NCBI GenBank assembly: GCA_029570385.1
Contig: JAKPXD010000009.1
Location: 1-54,924, forward strand
Reading direction: 5' to 3'
Source of the DNA: a bacterium
Lineage (GTDB): Bacteria > Patescibacteriota > Patescibacteriia > Patescibacteriales > Patescibacteriaceae
Length of the DNA stretch: 54,924 nt
This document shows, piece after piece, positions 25,907-29,298 of this stretch. The notes below the pieces were generated by a model. It had not been told where the DNA came from. It ran no database searches and was given only the letters and a program-made list of their open reading frames with translations. Numbering within the stretch: position 1 is the first letter of the stretch; each line of letters opens with the position of its first letter. The position numbers and the translations under genes were made by a program.

Positions 25907-26386
25907 TTAAATCAACAACGCCACTAGAGCTTTTTTAACTGGTAGGTAGCAATAATAAAATACCTGTTTGTGCTCAAGCGGCCATTTCTGGTATCTAGTC
26001 AGACAACAACTGACTCTGGGACAATTAATGCAACAATTATCCCAGATTAATTGATTAATTTTATCCCAAGAAACAATGTAGTTTCGGGGTAACCAATTGG
26101 TCATTATCTGACCCAATATTTTTTCTTGCGCCGATCCAGATTGAACCTCCTGCCAATGGCAGCCAAATAAAACCTTCCAGGCCATTTTTTTATTGGCCGT
26201 GTTAAACAGGTCCTCTGGAGTTGTGATCACTTGAGCACAAACTTCTTCCGGCAGTAAATTGTTGAATAGAGTATGCCAGGCATCATGTATTCGCCATGGC
26301 ACTCTTTTGATGTTATCTTTGGACGAGTCACCGCCCCGAGAGCGCGGAATCAGATGATGCACGGTTGACTTGTTACCATTATTCAA
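25907..26386 (-). CDS. HNH-like small protein, function unknown
   Basis: About 159 residues. The N-terminal stretch HHLIPRSRGGDSSKDNI followed by HDAWHTLF resembles the beta-beta-alpha metal core of HNH nucleases (two His, GG turn, Asn, second His), but a final catalytic His is not certain. A cysteine cluster near the C terminus (NCCINCPRVSCC) may bind metal. A perfect AAGGAGG lies 5 nt before a TTG at 26386, so I favour that start over the GTG at 26416. It is monocistronic with its own terminator. A nuclease role is inference from the motif only. Confidence 0.65.
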   Translation of the reverse strand: MNNGNKSTVHHLIPRSRGGDSSKDNIKRVPWRIHDAWHTLFNNLLPEEVCAQVITTPEDLFNTANKKMAWKVLFGCHWQEVQSGSAQEKILGQIMTNWLPRNYIVSWDKINQLIWDNCCINCPRVSCCLTRYQKWPLEHKQVFYYCYLPVKKALVALLI

Positions 26387-26503
26387 AACATCCTCCTTTT
26401 TGATTTTAGTAGTCACAAGGTACTATTTATAAAATAAAACTTTAATCATCTTTTGTAAACCCAATAAAAACTGACTAATATTAAAATAAATCAATCGATC
26501 CTC

Positions 26504-29068: not shown

Positions 29069-29097
29069 TTGACAATCATCTCGGTTGATAATAGAAT
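29069..29097 (+). promoter_or_regulatory. Promoter of a candidate non-coding RNA
   Basis: TTGACA (29069-29074), exactly 17 nt, TAGAAT (29092-29097). The predicted start, about 29104, is the first base before a perfect 15-bp helix. No plus-strand gene follows, so the promoter appears dedicated to the RNA. Confidence 0.65.
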
Positions 29098-29103
29098 AAA
29101 GCC

Positions 29104-29298
29104 AGTCAAACTATTGCCAGTGGCAGCCAAAAATTGGCGTTTATTTAAGGCAATTAACCCAATCAGACCGGTAAGGGGCACCCCCCTCGCTGATTGGGCA
29201 CTCCCTTGAAGCGCTTGGCAATAGTTTGACCACTTGGGGTGTCCCTTTTTGGTAGGGAAATAAAAAATACCGCTTTACTTTAACGGTATTTTATTTTT
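29104..29298 (+). ncRNA. Candidate structured RNA of about 195 nt, class unknown
   Basis: The segment lacks any credible reading frame but is highly structured. A perfect 15-bp helix closes it (GTCAAACTATTGCCA at 29105-29119 with its complement at 29216-29230). Inside are a GCCAA/TTGGC hairpin and a 9-bp helix CCCAATCAG/CTGATTGGG (29158-29166 with 29190-29198). The loop CACCCC (29179-29184) can pair with GGGGTG (29236-29241), a pseudoknot. A TCCCT/AGGGA hairpin and a terminator (AATACCG 29266-29272, CGGTATT 29284-29290, T run) follow. Closing stem, large internal loop and apical stem recall 6S RNA, but the pseudoknot does not, and I cannot name the class. It lies antisense to no gene. Confidence 0.6.
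29266..29298. terminator. Bidirectional terminator (ncRNA and anti-sigma-like gene)
   Basis: A 7-bp stem AATACCG/CGGTATT flanked by A- and T-rich tracts. On the plus strand it ends the candidate RNA; on the minus strand it lies just beyond the stop at 29312. Confidence 0.7.

Follow-up and report, generated by a model that had tools for sequence, protein, structure and literature searches.

A structured RNA family of Patescibacteria without an Rfam 15 entry, probably a pseudoknot-terminated leader of prophage cargo genes

A folded RNA with its own promoter and terminators

The window, by which we mean the whole 54,924-nucleotide stretch of contig JAKPXD010000009.1 analysed here, carries on its plus strand a folded RNA belonging to a family that has no entry in Rfam 15 (Table 1). 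The RNA begins about 7 nt past the end of its promoter and is organised as P1-P4-P3, with a pseudoknot between the apical loop and the 3′ tail and a U-tract behind it. A pseudopilin gene adjoins the RNA divergently, a convergent gene lies opposite, and no same-strand reading frame of at least 45 aa follows downstream. About 3 kb from the RNA, amid host-type genes, there is an HNH endonuclease-like frame (25907-26416, minus strand), a possible mobile trace.

A preliminary description, made from the nucleotide letters alone, had proposed a structured RNA gene delimited by a TTGACA-17-TAGAAT promoter and a terminator, with a perfect 15-bp closing helix, a 9-bp apical helix and a pseudoknot of six pairs. 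The RNA is real, and its promoter, both helices, the U-tract and a second hairpin beyond it were all recovered; the pseudoknot is longer than had been described, at 10 bp. The plus strand folds at -73.8 kcal/mol, compared with -53.1 +/- 4.5 kcal/mol for shuffled sequences (z -4.6), and the minus strand folds better still (z -5.7). We assign the RNA to the plus strand because of its promoter and its homologs, folding energy being insufficient by itself when the minus strand folds better.

Table 1. Features of the RNA locus, in window coordinates
Feature	Position	Strand	Evidence and remarks
Promoter TTGACA-17-TAGAAT	29069-29097	+	11 of 12 consensus positions matched; best-scoring of the region
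RNA core, transcript start through U-tract	29104-29250	+	Model R3: 77.7 bits, E 2.5e-19 (R3 training includes the window)
P1 5′ strand, 15-bp closing helix	29105-29119	+	Fold, ortholog; two-sided changes in 10 of 14 P1 pairs across 22 members
P1 3′ strand, 15 perfect pairs	29216-29230	+	Fold, ortholog, covariation
P2, small hairpin	29126-29138	+	Sequence varies and pairing persists in the ortholog (two-sided changes in 3 of 5 pairs)
P4 5′ strand, 7-bp helix	29144-29150	+	Fold; P4 kept weakly in the ortholog, conserved well in the remaining family
P4 3′ strand	29204-29210	+	Fold
P3 apical helix 5′ strand, 9 bp, CCCAAUCAG	29158-29166	+	Fold, ortholog
P3 3′ strand, CUGAUUGGG	29190-29198	+	Fold, ortholog
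Pseudoknot strand in the P3 apical loop, GGGGCACCCC	29175-29184	+	Complementary to 29236-29245; compensatory changes across the family
Pseudoknot 3′ strand, GGGGUGUCCC, just past P1	29236-29245	+	10 of 10 bases pair with GGGGCACCCC
U-tract UUUUU abutting the pseudoknot helix, terminator-like	29246-29250	+	UUUUU in window copy and ortholog; a U-tract in all members
Second, ordinary hairpin with T-tracts, back-up terminator	~29264-29298	+	Called on the minus strand by the terminator scan; counterpart in the ortholog

Known RNA classes do not account for the locus. At gathering score, Rfam 15 gave zero matches in the window, riboswitch and leader families included, and permissive scans of the region, the ortholog and seven relatives returned sub-threshold matches, many of them on the wrong strand, or tRNAs only. 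Neither ARAGORN nor Rfam detected a tmRNA, and the covariance models for RNase P RNA and SRP RNA were unmatched in the window, the region and the ortholog, in agreement with the preliminary description, which could not place the RNA in any of these classes or among riboswitches. Its suggestion of a loosely 6S-like outline is not borne out: the 6S model (RF00013) found nothing in the window or in 16 relatives, while being positive in six control genomes. The family shares with 6S RNA a similar length range and the long closing helix, and nothing past that helix; it does not fold as one hairpin opened by a central bubble, and it has a 3′-tail pseudoknot. A conserved leader peptide is also unlikely, as the reading frames across the RNA vary by locus.

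Relatives and covariation

A plain BLASTN search of 61 relatives returned only one ortholog, in another genome of the genus (G001:C3, Ca. Falkowbacteria UBA1359; L002:1505-1640, minus strand; E 1.4e-21). This copy has the promoter TTGACA-17-TAAAAT, P1 with a single A-U to G-U change, P3, an identical pseudoknot, and a P2 of new sequence in which pairing is maintained. The same pseudopilin gene adjoins both copies divergently, the convergent gene opposite differs, and the flanks align poorly. That the RNA is kept in two species despite these poorly alignable flanks argues for selection on it. A copy was not found in G002, of the same genus, whose assembly is rated 95% complete.

A model trained on the window copy and its ortholog alone (R2) picked up a third, diverged copy in G001, the RNA of which is also carried by contig L078 (taken to be G001:C4). 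The search pattern GGGTGTCCSTTTTTG, derived from the 3′ end of this diverged G001 copy, gave 13 matches in the 381 genomes of the class and none when reversed, and a longer pattern run on GTDB genomes gave 23 loci, 18 of which were judged members by inspection and a third model. Six loci with the pattern and no fold were discarded (L074, L075, L084, L085, L090 and L093). Model R3 includes the window sequence and its window score is thus not independent; R2 is the independent test. Run across 29 other loci (397 kb), R2 placed 20 of the 29 RNAs exactly (best E 6e-10), with one stray hit at E 2. Since R2 was built without those loci and recovers 20 of the 29, the window RNA belongs to the family.

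Members occur in Falkowbacteria, Komeilibacteria, Moranbacteria and other Parcubacteria, with a patchy distribution: within the class, 17 of the 381 genomes have the RNA, and in four of these the copies are diverged; G001, G053 and G352 each have two diverged copies. Elsewhere in the phylum there are two moderate matches, one of which (L285) is a convincing member. The idea of a CPR-specific RNA in the preliminary description agrees with all searches, in that relatives were found only in Patescibacteria as far as searched. Two contigs filed under Tepidanaerobacteraceae and Planctomycetota (L081 and L092) bear typical members and are probably misbinned. The exact window-type pattern had zero matches in GTDB genomes and viral contigs because it is overly strict; the pattern GGTCGGGTGTCCGTTTTT had one match in viral contigs, by chance, and a loop pattern gave chance matches only. 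There was no copy in phage and plasmid collections.

We note a subgroup (L139:9976-10111, L141:9946-10092 and L285:1501-1630) in which P1 begins GUC(C/U)AAA and GACACC overlaps the end of P1, which puts P1 in competition with a local terminator hairpin; the window type seems nearest to this subgroup.

Covariation across CPR genomes, which the preliminary description had named as a check, is strong. The alignment A5 comprises 22 distinct members and 41 pairs, counting the pseudoknot; 94.5% of its cells are paired, and 26 pairs have two-sided changes. These amount to 128 two-sided cells versus 37.7 in shuffled alignments, and none of 500 shuffles equalled any measure. When the alignment is slid out of register, pairing is at most 45%.

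For the pseudoknot, the 3′ strand was set by the search pattern in 20 of the 22 aligned members, and only members detected by other means (L134, L135, L138-L141, L285 and the window) contribute variation in it. In these, the 3′ strand varies with compensation in its partner: GAUC/GAUC in L134, CUGAC/GUCAG in L138, GGGACAAC/GUUGUCCC in L140 and CGGCACCCG/CGGGUGUCG in L139. The apical strand is the strongest partner of the 3′ strand at each of the 31 loci, at about -18 to -26 kcal/mol, a value equalled by at most 0.5% of shuffles.

Two stretches, CAGGAAC and GGAYACC, are conserved and unpaired in the family. The second lies between P4 and P1 and in most members could pair with the 3′ strand of the pseudoknot, which would likewise set a helix ahead of the U-tract; this pairing is above the shuffled mean in most members, modest, clear only sometimes, and absent in some. 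L135 carries an insertion of two bases on either side (GGAUACACC/GGUGUGUCC), in support of the pairing. The GGAYACC strand is absent from the window copy. An unrelated resemblance concerns the window loop strand AAGGGGCACC (29173-29182), which recurs in the tRNA-Ser(GCU) gene of a sister genome (L067:1105-1191); the 3′ strand could pair with this tRNA over about 12 bases, probably by coincidence.

Genes around the family

Most members stand directly ahead of a gene. In 25 of 28 non-window loci the same strand carries an ATG reading frame that begins 3-66 nt past the U-tract, and L285 has one too, giving 26 of 29; the loci without a following start codon are L136 (a remnant near tRNA-Ser), L127 and L082. 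An equivalent -10 box lies immediately upstream of the RNA in the other members. The genes behind the leader vary, and include zinc-ribbon proteins, small membrane proteins and, in L140, a recombinase; one of the proteins resembles superinfection-exclusion families (phrog_4980, E 8.6e-6). No gene follows the window copy or its ortholog, and neither occupies a leader position. Thus the preliminary description of the RNA as free-standing applies to the window copy; the family is mostly a leader before integrated-phage genes.

The surroundings of many members are those of prophages. In seven loci a divergent serine recombinase or integrase gene (Resolvase, Recombinase, or integrase phrog_95) lies 97-126 nt from the RNA, and nearby phage genes code for the terminase large subunit (phrog_38, E 8.8e-75) and small subunit, a ParB-methyltransferase (phrog_498) and a CI-like repressor. 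Of the 29 loci, 18 have one or more of these genes in the available DNA, several of the stretches being short, and in nine it is a terminase or methyltransferase gene. None of these phage genes surround the window copy or the ortholog. We found no copy at 126 viral-contig loci near related integrases (47) and terminases (79), which ties the RNA to some prophages and not to these phages generally.

Two further observations concern these neighbourhoods. In L072, L081, L124 and L129 the interval from the integrase start to the promoter of the RNA contains a second conserved stretch, approximately GACGCAAAGCGGCAGGGAAGTCCAGACC..CTGTAGGTAACTTT, no more than about 130 nt from the RNA and perhaps an operator, an att site or another RNA. 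In genome G090 (L128:209-9332), the RNA follows genes that by eye resemble a type I restriction system, a patatin-like protein and a CD-NTase-like protein (possibly CBASS), with terminase genes shortly beyond this run.

Proposed function and comparison with known systems

We propose that the family serves prophage cargo genes as an attenuator leader with a pseudoknot as its terminator, a reading to which we give a probability of roughly 60%. We favour it because a promoter of its own, a stable helix at a U-tract and a gene right behind make up the anatomy of an attenuator. The family has all of this anatomy, namely a GC-rich helix, a U-tract directly behind it and then a gene, and the window copy has the helix and U-tract only. 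Transcription would start at the base of P1, and about 150 nt would fold as P1-P4-P3. The apical-loop strand of P3 would then pair with the strand just past P1, and the resulting pseudoknot helix of 9-14 bp, set against the U-tract, is predicted to act as an intrinsic terminator ahead of a short gene 3-66 nt further on. Where GGAYACC competes for the 3′ strand, the leader probably switches between states and so may set the level of read-through. The regulated gene would typically be integrated-phage cargo: a zinc-ribbon protein, a small membrane protein, a superinfection-exclusion-like protein or, once, a recombinase.

Both the downstream gene and GGAYACC appear to have been lost from the window copy and its ortholog, which have kept the promoter, fold, pseudoknot and second terminator; such a locus would make only a short stable RNA. 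This pattern of loss and retention suggests that the two copies are free-standing derivatives converted to a stand-alone RNA, which might act in trans. We put forward more tentatively a fuller version of the proposal: that these RNAs are a new class of phage leaders acting in cis, with a pseudoknot that closes over about 50 nt as the intrinsic terminator in place of a local hairpin; that they restrain the lysogeny cargo of Patescibacteria prophages; and that a Falkowbacteria lineage has domesticated one as a stand-alone RNA with its own function.

The RNA could instead itself be the product, a trans-acting small RNA in immunity or antisense regulation comparable to the phage P4 CI RNA and c4 RNA, with the gene behind it a read-through passenger and the window copy domesticated. 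That the gene-less window copy and ortholog still keep the promoter, the fold and an identical pseudoknot would fit such a role, as would the two diverged copies in each of three genomes. However, a start codon right behind the U-tract in 26 of 29 other loci would be superfluous for a pure small RNA gene, and the pairing strands are matched inside each RNA, which fits internal pairing better than pairing in trans; we regard this explanation as unlikely. A protective or translational 5′ leader, in which P1 and the pseudoknot block decay from the 5′ end or influence how ribosomes load, the U-tract being no terminator, would suit the start of P1 at or beside the predicted transcript start and the direct junction of leader and reading frame. 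It leaves unexplained both the conserved U-tract behind the pseudoknot and the retention of the RNA where there is no gene, and we consider it distinctly improbable.

We give very little credence to a metabolite or ion riboswitch class; the leader position, the conserved unpaired CAGGAAC and GGAYACC and the terminator-like 3′ end would be compatible with one, but the downstream genes are mostly phage cargo without a common pathway, and known riboswitch models are unmatched. Finally, the end of a transposon (a MITE, the match that the preliminary description had named as fatal to its RNA) or a chance palindrome might be suspected from the perfect inverted repeat and the better-folding minus strand, but can be dismissed on computational grounds given a single copy in its genome (G000, where dispersed copies would be expected), covariation in 22 diverged members and conservation of the promoter on one strand.

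If the attenuator reading is right, the family offers a testable case of a pseudoknot serving as a terminator, and the window copy would show plainly how a phage leader turns into a stand-alone RNA. Very little is known about regulatory RNA in Patescibacteria or about gene control by their phages, and a covariation-backed family gives a means of searching their genomes for prophage cargo.

In the open-access literature searched, we found no earlier description of the RNA. The family is new to Rfam 15; structured phage leaders with a terminator are already known as a kind, with manA and wcaG as phage examples and crcB as a leader that a terminator overlaps (PMC2864571). The manA and wcaG motifs are leader RNAs of cyanophages (PMC2864571), and like the present family they are phage-carried structured leaders ahead of accessory genes, although in other hosts and before other genes, and their Rfam models are unmatched here. 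The crcB and pfl motifs are leaders or riboswitches in which a terminator overlaps the conserved fold (PMC2864571). They resemble the family in being conserved folded RNAs in a 5′ leader with a terminator-like 3′ end immediately ahead of the start codon; in the family, by contrast, the pseudoknot helix itself abuts the U-tract, the sequence is unrelated, the genes are phage cargo without a common pathway, and one branch is free-standing. The crcB RNA is also much smaller. The c4 antisense RNA and the P4 CI RNA are short phage-borne RNAs that regulate phage genes, partly via premature termination. They act in trans by antisense pairing, whereas in the new family, which has no Rfam match to them, the complementary strands share one RNA.
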